A stretch of 64,000 nt of DNA, from assembly GCF_030734285.1 (NCBI RefSeq), contig NZ_CP132294.1, positions 2,418,001 to 2,482,000 on the forward strand, given 5' to 3'. How positions within the stretch are numbered: the stretch's first letter is position 1; each line of letters opens with the position of its first letter. Shown here one piece after another: positions 7,416-13,053 of this stretch. The notes beneath the pieces are model-generated. The model saw only the letters and a program-made list of their open reading frames with translations, did no database searches and had not been told where the DNA came from. Source of the DNA: Natronococcus sp. AD-5 (GTDB lineage: Archaea; Halobacteriota; Halobacteria; Halobacteriales; Natrialbaceae). The position numbers were made by a program, and so were the translations under genes.

Positions 7416-8070
7416 CGTCTGTTGGTTGGGTGAATTGCTGCGTCTGGTTCGCCTCGGCGGCGGACGATTCCGTCGGCGGCGCCGCGGTGTCGTCGGTGCC
7501 GCGGGCGAGCGCCGTCGTGCCGGTCCGAGCGATCTCGCGGATGCCGAACTGGCCGAACGTCTCGATCGCGGCCTCGATCTTCTGGCGGGCGCCGGTGATC
7601 TCGAAGGTCGCCGTCTCGGGGCTCGAGTCGACGGTCTTCGCGTCGTACATGTCCGCGACGGCCGCGACCCGGTCGGGGCGCTCGGCGTTGACCTTCACGA
7701 GCGCCAGCTCCCGGCGCATCGCGTCGGGCTCGAGTTCCCGCACGGCGATGACCGGCAGCAACTTCCGCAGCTGCTTTTTGACCTGATCGATGCCGGGATC
7801 GGGCTCCTCGACGACGAGGGTGATCCGGGCGCGTCCGTCCTCGGCGGTCGGCCCGACGGTCAGGCTCTCGATGTTGAACTGCCGCCTCGAGAACAGTCCC
7901 GAGACGTCCGAGAGCACGCCGGGCTCGTGTTCGACCAGCACCGAGATGACGGTGCGCCGGGGCTCGCGTTTCGCTTCGATCTCCGGATCGATGCGGATCC
8001 CCTGCTTGTTGCGCCGCCCGGCCGGCGTCGGTCGCTCCTCGGGGGCCGGTCCGTCGAGCCCGTGAGTCAT
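7408..8070 (-). CDS. ilvN: Acetolactate synthase regulatory (small) subunit
   Basis: 220 residues. An ACT domain begins near residue 38 ([20 protein letters not shown], then [11 protein letters not shown]), followed by the C-terminal small-subunit domain, where [19 protein letters not shown] lies near 127. It confers valine feedback control on the IlvB catalytic subunit. The ATG at 8068-8070 overlaps the ilvB stop by 4 bp. The N-terminal 35 residues and the C-terminal Gln/Thr-rich tail are extra to the bacterial core and look disordered. Confidence 0.93.
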
Positions 8071-9878
8071 AGTTGATCCTCCGTCAGCGCGAACTGCCCG
8101 TTGTCGCCGCCGCTCGGCACCATCGGGTAGACGTTCGCCTGCGGATCGATGTGGACGTCGATCACCGAGGGACCGTCGTACGCCAGCGCGTCGTCGATGG
8201 TGTCGGCGACCTCGTCGTAGTCGTCGATCCGGAAGCCGGCCGCGCCGAACGCCTCGGCGAGCTTGTCGAACTCGGGCATCCAGCCGTAGTCCGACGCGGA
8301 GTGACGGCCGTCGAAGAAGGCGTCCTGCCACTGGCGGACCATCCCGATGTACTCGTTGTTGAGCACGGCGACCGTGATGTCCAGGTTCTCGCGGACGGCC
8401 ACGGACAGCCCCTGCAGCGTCATCAGGAACGAGCCGTCGCCGTCGATGCAGACGACCTCCTGGTCGTCGTCGGCCGCGAAGCGAGCGCCGATCGCCGCCG
8501 GCAGCCCGTAGCCCATCGTCCCGAGCCCGTGACTCGAGACCCAGGTCCGGGGCTCGGTGTAGGTCCAGTACTGGCAGGCCCACATCTGGTGCTGGCCGAC
8601 GCCGGTGGTCACGACGGCGCGGTCGCTCGTGGCCTCGTCCAGCGCCTCGACGACGAACTGCGGTTTGATCGGTTCGTCCTCGGGCGCGTCGTAGGCCATC
8701 GAGTAGTCCGACTTCCACTGCTGGCACTGGGCGCGCCACTTCGTGGCCTTCGGCGAGGCGTCGACCGCCTCGGCCAGCTGGGAGACGACGGTTCCGGCGT
8801 CGCCGACCAGCGGGTAGTCCGCGCGGATGTTCTTCGAGATCTCGGCAGGGTCGATGTCGACGTGGATGATCTCCGCGTCGGGCGCGAACGTCTCGATCCC
8901 GCCGGTCAGGCGGTCGTCGAACCGCGTCCCGACCGCGATCATCGTGTCGCAGTGGGTGATCGCCATGTTGGCGTAGCCGGTGCCGTGCATGCCCGCCATC
9001 TCCATCGACAGCTCGTGATCTTCGGGGAACGATCCGATGCCGGGCATCGTCGTGACGACCGGGATCTCGTGCTCGGTCGCGAACTCGCGGCAGGCCTCGC
9101 TGGCCTCGCCCTTGATGACCCCGCCGCCGAGCAGCATGATGGGACGCTGAGCGTTCTCGATCCGTCCGGCCGCGGCGTCGACGGTCTCCGGATCCGCTCG
9201 CTCCTGCACCTCGTAGGTGCGGGGCACCGCGGGCTCGTCGGGCTCGCGGTCGGTCTCGGCGTTGGTGACGTCCTTCGGCAGGTCGACCAGCGTCGGTCCG
9301 GGTCGACCCTCGCGGGCCAGCGCGAACGCCTCGCTGACGTCGGTGCCGACGCGATCCGGCTCGCTCGAGAACGTGTTGTCTTTCGTCACGGGCGTCGTGA
9401 CGCCGGTGGTGTCGGTCTCCTGGAAGGCGTCGTTGCCGACGAACTCCGTGGGAACTTGCCCGGTCAGCGCGACGACCGGGTCCGAGTCCATGTCGGCGTC
9501 GGCCAAGCCGGTGACGAGATTGGTCGCCCCCGGCCCCGACGTGGCGAGACAGATGCCGGGCTCGCCGGAGACGATGCCGTAGGCGTCGGCCGCGTGCGAG
9601 GCGCCCTGTTCGTGGGCCATCGTTACGTGGTGGATCTCGGAGTCGTACAGCGCGTCGTAGACGGGCATGATCGCGCCGCCCTGCACGCCGAAGGCGTGTT
9701 CGACGCCCGCGTTCTCGAGCGCGCGGACGACCGCCTCGGCACCCGTGGTGACGGGGTGCCGTTCGGGTTCGGACTCCGTTTCGGCGGTGGTGTCGGCCGG
9801 CTCCCGCGCGTCGCGGGCCGGGTCCTGATCGTCGTACTGTTCTTCGGTCGCGGTAACCGGTGCTGCGCGTTCGCTCAT
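8067..9878 (-). CDS. ilvB: Acetolactate synthase large (catalytic) subunit
   Basis: 603 residues. This ThDP-dependent enzyme condenses two pyruvates, or pyruvate and 2-oxobutyrate, at the first common step of branched-chain synthesis. The catalytic Glu is in MAHEQGASHAADAYG near residue 88; the ThDP/Mg motif runs from GDGSFLMTLQG to the paired Asn of AVLNNEY near 480-510. The first 45 residues are an acidic extension. A good Shine-Dalgarno-like GAGGT lies about 6 nt before the ATG, unlike the leaderless genes nearby. This agrees with a roughly 210-nt leader that contains an upstream ORF. Confidence 0.96.
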   Translation of the reverse strand: MSERAAPVTATEEQYDDQDPARDAREPADTTAETESEPERHPVTTGAEAVVRALENAGVEHAFGVQGGAIMPVYDALYDSEIHHVTMAHEQGASHAADAYGIVSGEPGICLATSGPGATNLVTGLADADMDSDPVVALTGQVPTEFVGNDAFQETDTTGVTTPVTKDNTFSSEPDRVGTDVSEAFALAREGRPGPTLVDLPKDVTNAETDREPDEPAVPRTYEVQERADPETVDAAAGRIENAQRPIMLLGGGVIKGEASEACREFATEHEIPVVTTMPGIGSFPEDHELSMEMAGMHGTGYANMAITHCDTMIAVGTRFDDRLTGGIETFAPDAEIIHVDIDPAEISKNIRADYPLVGDAGTVVSQLAEAVDASPKATKWRAQCQQWKSDYSMAYDAPEDEPIKPQFVVEALDEATSDRAVVTTGVGQHQMWACQYWTYTEPRTWVSSHGLGTMGYGLPAAIGARFAADDDQEVVCIDGDGSFLMTLQGLSVAVRENLDITVAVLNNEYIGMVRQWQDAFFDGRHSASDYGWMPEFDKLAEAFGAAGFRIDDYDEVADTIDDALAYDGPSVIDVHIDPQANVYPMVPSGGDNGQFALTEDQL

Positions 9879-9997
9879 CGATTACCTCTTGCCGCGTCGG
9901 GGCGGTCCGTTGCTCTGGGTGGTGTCATCTGGTGGATGGCTGCTCGCTCTGAAGCCGATGCGACGAATACGGGCCGGAATCGAGGGAGGAGTAGGTG

Positions 9998-10012
9998 AGG
10001 GGCTAAGCCCCT
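9998..10012 (-). promoter_or_regulatory. Hairpin spanning the stop codon of the ilvB leader ORF
   Basis: On the minus-strand RNA, AGGGGC-UUA-GCCCCU forms a perfect 6-bp stem with a 3-nt loop. The 5' arm covers the last codons of the upstream ORF, and the stop codon begins in the loop. A competing pairing, GUAGG with CCUAC (10010-10014 with 9991-9995), would exclude part of it. No U-tract follows, so a simple intrinsic terminator is not evident. The arrangement would let ribosome position at the Ile/Val codons decide the folding. Confidence 0.5.
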
Positions 10013-10086
10013 ACAATACGGATGCGAGCGAACGCGCTGCCGTCGGCTGCGCGAGCGCGAGCCGATGGTGAAGCGCGATCCGTCAT
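10003..10086 (-). CDS. Candidate ilvB leader peptide (27-codon leaderless upstream ORF)
   Basis: The ATG at 10084-10086 lies about 31 bp downstream of the centre of a TATA-like box, where transcription should start, so it would be the first codon of the ilvB mRNA. The reading is MTDRASPSARARAADGSAF followed by ARIRIVGA and a TAG stop. Three of the last six residues are Ile or Val, products of this operon. The stop lies in a hairpin 124 nt before ilvB. This resembles bacterial ilv leader-peptide attenuators. It is not acidic, so it is unlikely to be a stable haloarchaeal protein; a regulatory role is inferred from position and content only. Confidence 0.45.
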   Translation of the reverse strand: MTDRASPSARARAADGSAFARIRIVGA

Positions 10087-10112
10087 TACTCACCTCGTAG
10101 GTCCGGCGATCG

Positions 10113-10121
10113 TAATAATAG
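10113..10121 (-). promoter_or_regulatory. TATA-like promoter box of the ilvB operon
   Basis: The minus strand reads CTATTATTA, about 31 bp before the leader ORF's ATG and about 235 bp before ilvB. It places a separate promoter between leuA and ilvB. The 9879-10201 stretch (323 bp) holds this box, the leader ORF and the hairpin; I see no other gene or structural RNA in it. Confidence 0.5.
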
Positions 10122-10201
10122 TTCCGACCAGGGCAATGCTGGCGGGAACGGCGTCGCGATAGCCGGGGCTCCCGGCCGGTAGCAAACTGGGTGGACATCC
10201 C

Positions 10202-11435
10202 TCAGATGCGCACCTCCTCCGGCTCCCGCTGACGTTCGACGCCAGCGTCCTCGGCGAAGCGCTCCAGATCGCTGACCGTGATCCGGCGCTTCTCCGCACC
10301 GTAATCCTTGACTCGGCGGGTGACCGTGCGTACCTGCTCGTCGGTGGGGTCGAACCCGCACTCGCGCAGGCGCTCGCGGACCGAGTGCGTGCCCGTGTGT
10401 TTCCCCATGACCAGTCGGCGTTTCGCGCCGACCATCTCCGGGGTCATGACGCCGGGCTCGAAGGTGTCGGAGTTCTCGATGACGCCGGCGGCGTGAATGC
10501 CGCTCTCGTGGGAGAAGGCGTTGTCGCCGACGACGGGTTTGTTACCCGGCGTCGGGACGTCGCTTTTCTCCTCGACGACCTTCGAGAGCTCGGTGATGCG
10601 GGTCGTGTCGATCCCCGTATCGCACTGGTAGACCGACTCGACGGCCATCACGAACTCCTCGTAGGCGGCGTTGCCGGCGCGCTCGCCGATCGAGTTGACC
10701 GACACCTGGGCCTGGTCGGCCCCCGCTTCGATGCCGGCCAGCGCGTTGGCGGTGGCCAGTCCGAAGTCGTCGTGGGTGTGGACGTCGACCCGCGCGTCGG
10801 TGTGGGCGCAGATCGTCTCGATCAGCGCCTGGAACCGCCCGGGCGTGGCGACGCCGCAAGTGTCCGGAACGTTGATCCAGTCCGTGCCGGCCTCGGTGAC
10901 CGCTTCGACCACCTCGAGCAGGAATTCCTCGTCGGTGCGCGTCGCGTCCATCGGCGAGAACATGCAGGTCGCCCCCGCTTCCGTGATGCGTTCGACCGAT
11001 TCGACGGCGCGCTGGACGACGTCCTCTCGCGTGGCGTGCATCGAATCCTCGATCTGGACGTCGCTGGTGCTGACGAACGTGTGCACCATCTCGACGCCGG
11101 AGTCCAGCGCCGCTTCGATGTCCTCGTCGACGACGCGGGCTAACCCGCAGGTGGTCGTCGACGTCGAGGAAGCGATATCGCGAACGGCCTCGAACTCGGC
11201 CTCGGAGTTGACCGGGAATCCAGCCTCGATGACGTGGGTTCCCATCTCGTCCAGAATCGTTGCGATCTGCCGTTTATCGTCGGCGGAAAACGACGTTCCG
11301 GGCGACTGTTCGCCGTCCCGGAGGGTGGTGTCGAAGACACGTGCTGACTCGATTTCGTCAGTGGAATCTAACGTGCCCTGGAAGAACTCGACCCCCCTGA
11401 CTGGTGTCAGAGGTCGGGTTGCCTTGTGCAGACAT
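10202..11435 (-). CDS. leuA: 2-isopropylmalate/(R)-citramalate synthase, apparently frameshifted near the N-terminus
   Basis: About 410 residues. The enzyme condenses acetyl-CoA with 2-oxoisovalerate (or pyruvate). Signatures are VFDTTLRDGEQSPGTSFS, VHTHDDFGLATANALAG and NSIGERAGNAAYEE, from the catalytic TIM barrel with its metal ligands; the regulatory C-terminal domain is lacking or short. The likely start is the ATG at 11433-11435 (MSAQGNPTSDTSQG), placed about 30 bp after a strong TATA box, but that frame leaves the conserved frame at a run of six C on the plus strand (11392-11397). Removing one base joins it to GVEFFQGTLDSTDEIE. No in-frame ATG or GTG exists in the conserved frame downstream of the promoter. 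Either a real mutation or sequencing slip, or recoding. Confidence 0.88.
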
Positions 11436-11460
11436 TGTATCCGTTCCGACGCCCGAGGAT

Positions 11461-11470
11461 GTATATAAAA
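11461..11470 (-). promoter_or_regulatory. TATA box of leuA
   Basis: TTTTATATAC on the minus strand, about 26-35 bp before the ATG at 11435. Spacing fits a leaderless transcript beginning at or a few bases before that ATG. It argues against starting leuA at the far upstream in-frame ATG near 11545, because the promoter would then lie inside the gene. Confidence 0.7.
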
Positions 11471-11879
11471 CTGGCGCTGGACCCGGTGTGGCGTAACGTG
11501 TCGAGTAGAATAGTAATCGAGTATCACGCGAAAACCGCAAGACATCAACGACCTATTATTGAGGAGTGATCCTATTACCATACGGGACCCCTTCCGGGCC
11601 CCAATTTTATTTCCCGTGTTATAGATATAAAATATATCTTATTTACTATAGAATTATGTCCAGAACGCTGGCGCGCGCCTCACGATGCACACACGGTCAC
11701 TAACAATCGGTATGAATACAACGAATTAGGTGTTCGTCCACTTTCGGGATGATTACGGTACGAACGGTGAGAGATGAACGGCGTCCTGGGAAGACCCGGG
11801 GCTGTAGACGGGGGAAGTACAACGTGTTACAACCGAGCGCGCGTTCGCTCCTCGATCGTTCGAACCGGCGGGACGGCGA
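11471..11879. other. AT-rich intergenic region upstream of leuA
   Basis: About 400 bp without a credible gene. It is much more AT-rich than its surroundings around 11600-11660, with several TATA-like stretches (for example near 11624-11640) on both strands. A GC-rich inverted pair, GGGACCCC and GGGCCCC, lies near 11584-11601, close to an AT-rich ATTTTATTT. I see no acidic ORF and no tRNA-like fold. It probably holds further regulatory sequence for leuA and the end of the Lrp-TRASH gene's transcript. Confidence 0.4.
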
Positions 11880-12473
11880 TCACTCGAGCGCGTCGCGGTG
11901 TGACTCGTACCGGCTCACGTAACGGTCCTCACAGGAGGGACAGCAGAACGTCTTGATCTCCCCGTTCACGGTCGCCGTCACCCCGTCGTTGGTGACCTCC
12001 TTCCCGCAGACCACGCACTCGAGCGCGAAGCCGGTCGCCGCGAGGTCGGTCACCCGATCCGAGCGGTTGCAGAGGGTGACGTCGTAGCCGGTTACCGTTC
12101 CGAGGTCGACCTCGCGCTCGAGCCACGATCGGGCGTCGGCGTTCGGGATCGTCGCGTGGACGATCACGCGGCCGTCCATACCCTCGAAGACGTGTTCGAC
12201 GCCCTCGAGTTCGCCGGCGGCCGCGTAGACGTCGGCGACCGCGTCGGGGGTCGGCTCCAGTTCGACCAGCACCGGCACGTCGCCGCGGAGTTTTCCGCGG
12301 TCGATGTCGATCGTGAACCCCTGGATGATCTCCTGCTCTTCGAGTCGCGAGATGCGATCGGAGACGGCCGGCGGCGTCAGTCCGACGTGCTCGGCGATCT
12401 CCTTGTACGGGCGGCGGGCGTCGGCCGCGAGGAGTTCGAGAATCTCGAGATCGGTCTCGTCGAGGTCGCGCAT
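11880..12473 (-). CDS. Lrp/AsnC-family regulator with C-terminal TRASH metal-binding domain
   Basis: 197 residues. An AsnC-type helix-turn-helix occupies residues 1-55 (MRDLDETDLEILELLAADAR, PPAVSDRISRLEEQEII). The RAM/ligand domain is at about 65-140. A TRASH domain near 150-190 has Cys residues in CVVCGKEV and FCCPSCEDRYV. TRASH domains are predicted metal sensors, so a metal-responsive (perhaps copper) regulator is likely. The ATG at 12471-12473 is 124 bp from the divergent ferritin-like gene, which could be its target. The specific metal cannot be read from the sequence. Confidence 0.88.
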   Translation of the reverse strand: MRDLDETDLEILELLAADARRPYKEIAEHVGLTPPAVSDRISRLEEQEIIQGFTIDIDRGKLRGDVPVLVELEPTPDAVADVYAAAGELEGVEHVFEGMDGRVIVHATIPNADARSWLEREVDLGTVTGYDVTLCNRSDRVTDLAATGFALECVVCGKEVTNDGVTATVNGEIKTFCCPSCEDRYVSRYESHRDALE

Positions 12474-12597
12474 AGGTGTCGATTGGAACGCTCGCGCCAA
12501 GAGTGTGCCGTGCGGCCGGCGGAGCGCCCGCGCGAACGGACTGGTCACGAAACCGCGTGTGAGGATTATACCTTCGTTCGTGGAAGGACGGGACGCA

Positions 12598-13053
12598 ATG
12601 ACGTCCGACGAAGTTACAGACCTCCTGACGGAGGCGTACATCGACGAACTCGAGACCGTGATGAACTACCTGACGAACGGCATCGTGCTGGACGGCGTCC
12701 ACGCCGAGGAGGTCAAAGAGAGCCTCGAGGCCGACGTCGAGGAGGAACTCGAGCACGCCCGCCTGCTGGGCCACCGGCTGAAGCAACTCGACCAGTCCCC
12801 GCCCGGATCGGAGTCGTTCGAGGCGCGCCAGTCCAGCCTACAGCCGCCCGAAGATACCACGGACGTTCAGTCGGTCATCGACGGCGTCCTCGAGGCCGAG
12901 GAGGAGGCGAAGGAGACCTACCGGTCGCTGCTCGAGGCGGCCGAGGAGGCGAATGATCCTGTCACCGAGGACGTCGCGGTGACGATCCTCGCGGACGAGG
13001 AGGCTCATCACACCGAGTTCCGGGGGTTCAAAAAAGAATTTCCCCAGGATTGA
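12598..13053 (+). CDS. Ferritin-like diiron-domain protein
   Basis: 151 residues, nearly all helical. Glu/His pairs in the expected four-helix spacing are visible: ELETVMNYL near residue 18, EEELEHARLLGHR near 49, EAEEEAKETYRSLLEAAEE near 101 and DEEAHHTEFRG near 134. This matches the ferritin/rubrerythrin-like fold with an EExH site but has no rubredoxin domain. A role in iron handling or oxidative defence is likely; storage versus peroxidase activity is unclear. It is divergent from the Lrp-TRASH regulator. Confidence 0.8.
   Translation: MTSDEVTDLLTEAYIDELETVMNYLTNGIVLDGVHAEEVKESLEADVEEELEHARLLGHRLKQLDQSPPGSESFEARQSSLQPPEDTTDVQSVIDGVLEAEEEAKETYRSLLEAAEEANDPVTEDVAVTILADEEAHHTEFRGFKKEFPQD

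Follow-up and report, generated by a model that had tools for sequence, protein, structure and literature searches.

Upstream of ilvB, the acetolactate synthase gene of Natronococcus sp. AD-5, lies a leader conserved across the class Halobacteria, which is best explained, and in our judgement probably so, as a leader-peptide attenuator that would sense charged Ile and Val tRNA and act mainly on translation. The region was analyzed within a window of 64,000 nucleotides, where the pathway genes follow one another on the minus strand in the order leuA, ilvB and further ilv and leu genes, with about 320 nt separating the first two. This gap contains a predicted internal promoter, a leader ORF (ORF1) with an Ile-Val codon pair near its end, a hairpin, and a second ORF (ORF2) overlapping the ilvB start, together with two segments, S1 and S2, which are able to pair (Table 1). 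These elements, their conservation and the complementarity of S1 can be read directly in the sequences. The original prediction, made from this window, was that the logic of bacterial ilv attenuators may operate in an archaeon with translation as the sensor. It is supported by the class-wide conservation of ORF1, the Ile-Val codons and the hairpin; the regulation itself is what we infer from them. ORF2, the pairings of S1 and a second open frame (frame X) were not part of that prediction.

Table 1. Features of the leuA-ilvB region (positions in the window)
Feature	Position	Strand	Basis or remark
TATA box TATTATTA of internal ilvB promoter (predicted)	10113..10120	-	sequence; conservation of spacing
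ORF1, leaderless leader ORF (predicted), MTDRASPSARARAADGSAFARIRIVGA then stop	10003..10086	-	27 codons, end RIRIVGA
Ile-Val codons ATT (10017-10015) GTA (10014-10012)	10012..10017	-	conservation; rare codons
Hairpin AGGGGC-TTA-GCCCCT, with ORF1 stop TAG (10005-10003) inside	9998..10012	-	GGGG/CCCC conservation
S1, ORF1 segment directly upstream of the Ile-Val codons, GCGCGTTCGCTCG	10025..10037	-	13-nt complementarity to ilvB start
S2, stretch upstream of the ORF2 start, able to pair with S1	9941..9950	-	6 bp GCGAGC/GCTCGC
ORF2, MTPPRATDRPDAARGNR then stop, TGA overlapping the ilvB start (ATGA)	9875..9928	-	frame bias, I/L/V depletion
Shine-Dalgarno-like AGAGGT within ORF2, before ilvB	9884..9889	-	GGAGG in most relatives
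ilvB start region complementary to S1, TGAGCGAACGCGC	9865..9877	-	pairing scores, predicted fold
Frame X, 107-codon open frame from leuA stop to ilvB start	9875..10198	-	-1 relative to ORF1; 3' end is ORF2
ilvB, acetolactate synthase large subunit, target gene	8067..9878	-	homology
leuA, 2-isopropylmalate synthase, upstream gene	10202..11437	-	out-of-frame leaderless-type start
Lrp/AsnC-like regulator gene, cysteine-rich C-terminal region, adjoining leuA	11880-12641	-	candidate DNA-level pathway regulator

Conservation of the leader in Halobacteria

The ilvB gene was located by tblastn in the genomes of the family and of the class (IlvB homologues in 119 of 121 and 116 of 116 genomes, respectively), and the upstream regions were then inspected. 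A locus was considered positive when it contained GTAGGGG, an in-frame ORF initiated by ATG (GTG in one case) and a C-rich right arm. Among 150 distinct loci from 60 genera of the class, 147 carry upstream of ilvB an ORF1 with in-frame Ile-Val codons before GGGG...CCCC. The same leader was present in 51 of 54 further named loci, for some of which the species may overlap with the first set, and in 9 of 9 genomes of the same genus. Named carriers are Haloferax massiliensis (MTSHDAHAVRSTPDAGASDAAVGAIRSLIIVGA), Halorubrum, Natrinema, Haladaptatus and Halobacterium sp. Inspection of the ilvB upstream regions of the deepest lineages (G138 and Halorutilus) showed the leader to be absent there.

The pattern ATYGTAGGGGYN(1-10)CCCC has a single match in the Natronococcus genome and about one per haloarchaeal genome, at ilvB; the reversed pattern, used as a control, gave almost no matches in haloarchaeal genomes. 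It is a single-copy element linked to ilvB, and the pattern is rare in other parts of the phylum. Judged by these counts, the leader before ilvB is not a chance occurrence. The prediction stood or fell with conservation of the ORF in close relatives. This conservation turns out to extend to the whole class: the ORF, with its TATA spacing, terminal Ile/Val codons, adjacent stop and hairpin, is constant, whereas the body and length of ORF1 vary. As for co-variation, which had been proposed as a check, hairpin pairs do change jointly in several lineages.

Promoter, sensor codons and hairpin of ORF1

In the window the first base of the TTAT of the TATA-like box (10118) is located exactly 32 nt upstream of the ORF1 ATG (10086), in agreement with the promoter proposed there. 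In 145 of the 147 positive loci a TATA-like box lies 29-35 nt before an in-frame ORF1 start, and in 113 of them the distance is 32 nt. Conversely, an ATG located exactly 32 nt past the box falls in frame 0 in 106 of 147 loci and in either other frame in none. Leaderless transcripts represent 72% of the mapped protein-coding transcripts in Haloferax (PMC4983044), and the fixed TATA spacing supports the leaderless start that had been suggested for ORF1. Between the TATA box and the ORF1 ATG (10110-10090, minus strand), an element CTCGAG...CTAC, a possible regulator site, is kept in many Natrialbaceae; CTAC alone is present in the window.

ORF1 itself was found as described, with 27 codons (10086-10003), Ile/Val near its RIRIVGA end, and 124 nt from its stop to the ilvB ATG (9878). 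All 147 loci have a stop in the ORF1 frame 3, 4 or 8 codons past the Val codon. The identity of this stop varies (TAG in 110 loci, TAA in 25, TGA in 12), and the other two frames have a stop at the same positions in 1 and 0 loci. The residue preceding Val is Ile in 143 of 147 loci (Val in 2, Leu in 1 and Phe in 1). The Val codon GTA is invariant (147/147), though many hairpins do not need it. In the window genes, GTA is the rarest Val codon (2.3%) and ATT represents 8.9% of Ile codons; because both are rare, ORF1 probably uses slow codons, and the candidate sensor ATT GTA is probably read slowly. Three other loci depart from the usual arrangement. The second ilvB copy of genome G148 (L122) reads ATT ATT GGG GCT, i.e. 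Ile-Ile-Gly without GTA, and its hairpin is kept; L212 reads ATT ATT GGG GTT, again Ile-Ile without GTA, with a hairpin re-formed as GGGGTTC/GAACCCC; L101 has Ile-Arg-Val with GGGCC/GGCCC arms. A sensing role is favoured because the codon-level exceptions (II, VV, LV) keep branched-chain residues.

The GGGG/CCCC arms are found in essentially all loci, while the inner hairpin pairs and the loop length vary by lineage. The location of the stop codon inside a perfect hairpin, as first described, holds in the window and usually elsewhere, but it is not essential: 9 loci have their stop beyond the hairpin, 8 codons past the Val codon. About 14 nt directly 3' of the hairpin (9997-9980 in the window, minus strand) are nearly devoid of G in all loci. 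The body of ORF1 shows almost no codon-position signal and little amino-acid selection; leader peptide bodies usually evolve without codon-position signal. ORF1 appears to be translated on other grounds, namely TATA spacing, in-frame stop and Ile-Val codons.

Two other explanations of the conserved ORF1 end were considered. The nascent Ile-Val-Gly-Ala chain could be an arrest peptide, stalling the ribosome on a branched-chain metabolite and not on uncharged tRNA. The C-terminal I-V-G-(A/V) is indeed far better conserved than the body, in sequence and in position, and the retention of GTA where the hairpin can dispense with it points the same way. However, loci with I-I-G, V-V-G and L-V-G exist, and only about 4 residues are constant, known arrest peptides having more; we regard an arrest peptide as quite improbable. 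It is also conceivable that the palindrome GTAGGGG...CCCCTAC serves as a DNA operator or as a protein-binding RNA element, for instance for an Lrp/AsnC-type regulator like that encoded at 11880-12641, translation of ORF1 being incidental. In favour of such a role, GTAGGGG is invariant at the nucleotide level and an AsnC-like gene adjoins leuA, but the fixed TATA-ATG spacing and the frame-conserved stop with its changing stop codons speak for translation. In addition, the loop length is variable, the arms change together, two lineages lack GTA, and an operator would be oddly placed inside a transcript, where an ORF ends. This makes an operator very improbable. Sensing by the Ile-Val codons is retained below as the preferred reading.

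A second open frame between leuA and ilvB

Frame X is open in 119 of 141 loci and starts at most 7 nt from the leuA stop in 113. Compared with codon shuffling, its stops are strongly avoided, both within ORF1 (0 observed vs 83 expected) and within the spacer (1 observed vs about 60 expected). Because frame X is kept open, the frame between the hairpin and ilvB is constant. Given the codons of X, the ORF1 frame is expected to contain 1.7 stops; since X codons already predict an open frame 0, the openness of ORF1 says little by itself. One may therefore ask whether frame X is the real gene, or a bridge between leuA and ilvB, and ORF1 a by-product of its codons. The avoidance of stops, the start at the leuA stop and the expected openness of frame 0 all accord with this proposal. 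But 19 loci have lost the relation to X and retain ORF1 and the core, and frame X accounts neither for the TATA-ATG spacing and the in-frame stop nor for the drop in Ile, Leu and Val at the ORF2 ATG described below, so that we give it hardly any credence. We regard frame X as an additional input to ilvB and do not use it to explain ORF1. A frameshift from ORF1 to frame X on the GGGG run was rejected, X being at -1 whereas the G run permits +1.

ORF2 and its coupling to ilvB

ATG triplets between the hairpin and ilvB are mainly in the ORF2 frame (101/107), and the ORF2 stop ends at +4 of ilvB, forming the ATGA overlap, in 88 of 107 loci. The ORF2 frame contains only 35 Ile, Leu or Val in 2118 codons (1.7%), compared to 236 and 145 per 2002 codons (11.8% and 7.2%) when the same DNA is read in the two other frames. 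This depletion is significant at the genus level (Wilcoxon, p < 1e-6). It begins at the ORF2 ATG, where the proportion falls from 12.3% to 1.7%, values upstream in the same frame being 7-12%. No such decrease relative to the other frames is seen for Phe and Met, whose codons likewise carry U at the second position.

A Shine-Dalgarno motif precedes ilvB in 81 of 91 loci and ORF2 in 3 of 91; in the window AGAGG is found before ilvB, which indeed has its own motif, as had been noted. In H. volcanii, ATGA gene pairs are strictly coupled and Shine-Dalgarno motifs serve reinitiation, not de novo initiation (PMC6728339). Feeding of ilvB by ORF2 fits these data, because the motif sits inside ORF2 while ORF2 has none. 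The arrangement, with an upstream stop overlapping the downstream start and a Shine-Dalgarno within the upstream ORF, is that of the Haloferax termination-reinitiation pairs (PMC6728339). It differs in its upstream partner, which here is a small ORF of mostly 15-30 codons, almost devoid of branched-chain residues, whereas in those pairs it is a functional gene. ORF2, like ORF1, is predicted to be translated.

Complementarity of S1 to downstream start regions

For comparison across the class, S1 was defined as the 21-30 nt that precede GTA and S2 as the 40 nt before the ORF2 ATG. The two are complementary with sequences that differ by genus, for example GTGGCTGTCGG/CCGACAGCCAC, GTCGAGCGCGTG/CGCGCGCTCGAC and GCGTCGCTCG/CGAGCGACGC. 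Native S1 x S2 pairs score above genus-swapped pairs (z 3.9-4.3, 0 of 1000 swaps) and above dinucleotide shuffles (z 6.1), values which are somewhat overstated, as genus averaging limits the effect of kinship but related species are not independent. Control segments showed no excess complementarity in the swap and shuffle tests. Clear helices between S1 and S2 are seen in roughly one third of the genera, and the one in the window has 6 bp only. In Natrialbaceae, to which the window belongs, it is the ilvB start that is complementary to S1 (z 8.6 vs shuffles). In the window this pairing reaches 13 bp and is present in both the MFE and the centroid folds; it gives no covariation evidence, because the ilvB side is invariant, being fixed by coding. 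Strong pairing of S1 of either kind, with S2 or with the ilvB start, was found in 36 of 57 genera.

In stability, the predicted fold of the window leader does not exceed those of shuffled sequences (z -0.92). When a stalled ribosome was simulated by a mask, accessibility of the ilvB start rose modestly, in 29 genera against a fall in 6, a mask placed upstream having a nearly equal effect; the window leader itself showed no rise. Several other candidates were tried and rejected: pairing of CCCC/CUCCU with the ilvB Shine-Dalgarno as a general switch, which is not kept between lineages; unrestricted RNAduplex scoring, too permissive as a test since native and swapped partners scored the same; and a long-range helix given by RNAalifold in Natrialbaceae as covariation support, its ilvB side showing no variation. 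A T-box or riboswitch was also rejected for want of an Rfam match: covariance models, those of known leader motifs included, gave no gathering-level match in the window, and only chance matches (E up to 10) in 9800-11700.

Termination or ilvB translation had both been named as possible outputs. Translation has since gained ground through the ORF2-ilvB ATGA overlap and the covarying complementarity of S1 to the ORF2 and ilvB start regions. With termination as the output, ORF1 would still be the sensor, and transcription would end in the spacer, at the conserved YGYAYCG followed by TTTTC, once ribosomes have completed ORF1 and left, unless prevented by an Ile-Val stall. About 100 of 141 loci have a YGYAYCG element 42-55 nt past the core, a run of at least 4 T is present in the spacer of 32 of 60 genera, and the almost G-free stretch after the hairpin is compatible with this output. 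Intergenic terminators of Haloferax consist of a T stretch ending in TC (PMC7237163). However, no U-tract follows the hairpin, as noted from the start and confirmed both in the window and in the alignment of relatives; the window genus has no T run (GGCTTC in the window), and archaeal FttA favours U-rich RNA (PMC11616081). Termination would moreover leave ORF2, its Ile, Leu and Val depletion and the S1 complementarity to start regions unexplained, and we consider it unlikely. Loading of FttA at the C-rich stretch, in the style of Rho-dependent attenuation, was rejected given the preference of FttA for U-rich RNA (PMC11616081) and is kept only as part of the termination scheme. The YGYAYCG element is often followed by TTTTCAG (e.g. 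L022 and L094; around 9961-9945 in the window) and then resembles the T-stretch terminator of Haloferax.

Proposed mechanism

The proposed attenuator acting on translation can be described as follows, stalling, RNA switching and direction of regulation all being deduced from sequence. Transcripts from the internal promoter would start at the ORF1 AUG itself or only a few nt away. With ample Ile and Val, ribosomes would pass the rare ATT GTA, terminate at the hairpin stop and leave. Once ORF1 is completed, S1 would pair with S2 (with the start of ilvB in Natrialbaceae), and initiation at ORF2 or ilvB would be poor. Under a shortage of Ile or Val, the ribosome would wait on ATT GTA. Its 5' part would then cover S1 and its 3' part the left arm of the hairpin, freeing the start of ORF2 or ilvB. 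A ribosome footprint extends about 15 nt from the P site in both directions. If ATT or GTA occupies the A site, the footprint would lie over much of S1 and the left arm and end just before the right arm, with the sensor codons placed between the anti-start segment and the hairpin. ORF2 could be translated during starvation because it has almost no Ile, Leu or Val, and the ATGA overlap would hand its ribosomes to ilvB. On read-through transcripts, ribosomes coming from leuA would reach ilvB via frame X. The hairpin may serve to delay the ribosome, to clear it, or to keep GGGG from other pairings.

The wider proposal is an ancient, class-wide attenuation of ilvB, with a leaderless Ile-Val sensor ORF, an RNA switch and a relay ORF from which Ile, Leu and Val have been purged, all inside a second open frame bridging leuA and ilvB; we advance it tentatively, as somewhat short of probable. 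Against an attenuator speaks the dRNA-seq study of Haloferax, in which structured 5' leaders were judged untypical and ilvB does not figure in the table of uORFs (PMC4983044).

Relation to known attenuators

Leader-peptide attenuation is a textbook mode of bacterial regulation, and requires ribosomes on fresh mRNA. The haloarchaeal leader shares with the transcription attenuators of bacterial ilv/leu operons (ilvBN, ilvGMEDA and Corynebacterium ilvBNC) a short ORF before ilvB with codons for products of the pathway, a hairpin near the leader end, and an upstream segment that can base-pair further on in the RNA. Cognate codons are found in an ORF directly upstream in the 147 of 150 loci reported above. 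Unlike these systems, it has a leaderless ORF, a single Ile-Val pair, an ORF2 relay to ilvB and an archaeal host, and the window contains no intrinsic terminator with a U-tract. A terminator hairpin with U-tract was not found before ilvB in the window or the alignment, T4 runs occurring only further down in 32 of 60 genera, and because a U-tract terminator is absent in the window the leader does not belong to the transcription-attenuator class.

It has more in common with translation attenuators of the ermC and cat type. In these, as here, the stall site is beside a segment complementary to a downstream initiation region, which stalling would expose; in haloarchaea this complementarity is present, though not clear in every genus. 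The differences are that the proposed signal is amino-acid supply and not an antibiotic, that the start is leaderless, and that the sequestered start is that of the relay ORF or of ilvB, depending on the lineage.

No description of leader-peptide attenuation in archaea was found in the literature searched, which covers subscription papers thinly, so that an earlier mention in a table may exist. As the leader is conserved in nearly all haloarchaea, including the genetically tractable Haloferax, archaeal attenuation becomes directly testable, and the leader offers a handle on translation coupling in archaea. It also shows how attenuation could work on leaderless mRNAs, where the sensor ORF must start at the first base.

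The start of leuA

The neighbouring leuA has a start problem of its own. Its leaderless-type ATG is out of frame, a +1 shift being needed, in 9 of 9 Natronococcus and in 30 of 30 loci sampled class-wide (L246-L275). A start-codon problem has been published for HVO_1510 (leuA2), for which ribosomal slippage and leucine dependence were suggested; ilvB is absent from the main text of that paper (PMC8305020). The two cases are similar in that HVO_1510 concerns a neighbouring gene of the same pathway, with a leaderless ATG and an oddity at the level of translation suspected to depend on leucine (PMC8305020). They differ in that leuA needs a +1 shift or an atypical start, whereas ilvB has a separate leader ORF. 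The oddity of the leuA start strengthens the view that the haloarchaeal pathway is sensed at the ribosome; if the ilvB attenuator is real, the two together would mean that a whole archaeal pathway is sensed by the ribosome itself. At the leuA start (11437-11340 in the window, minus strand) the 9 and 30 loci share a GTTCTTC junction, and their leader frame soon meets a stop. The same region contains the conserved CGAGTTCTTCCAGGG, which reads RVLPGH in the leader frame and includes the rare Leu codon CTT.
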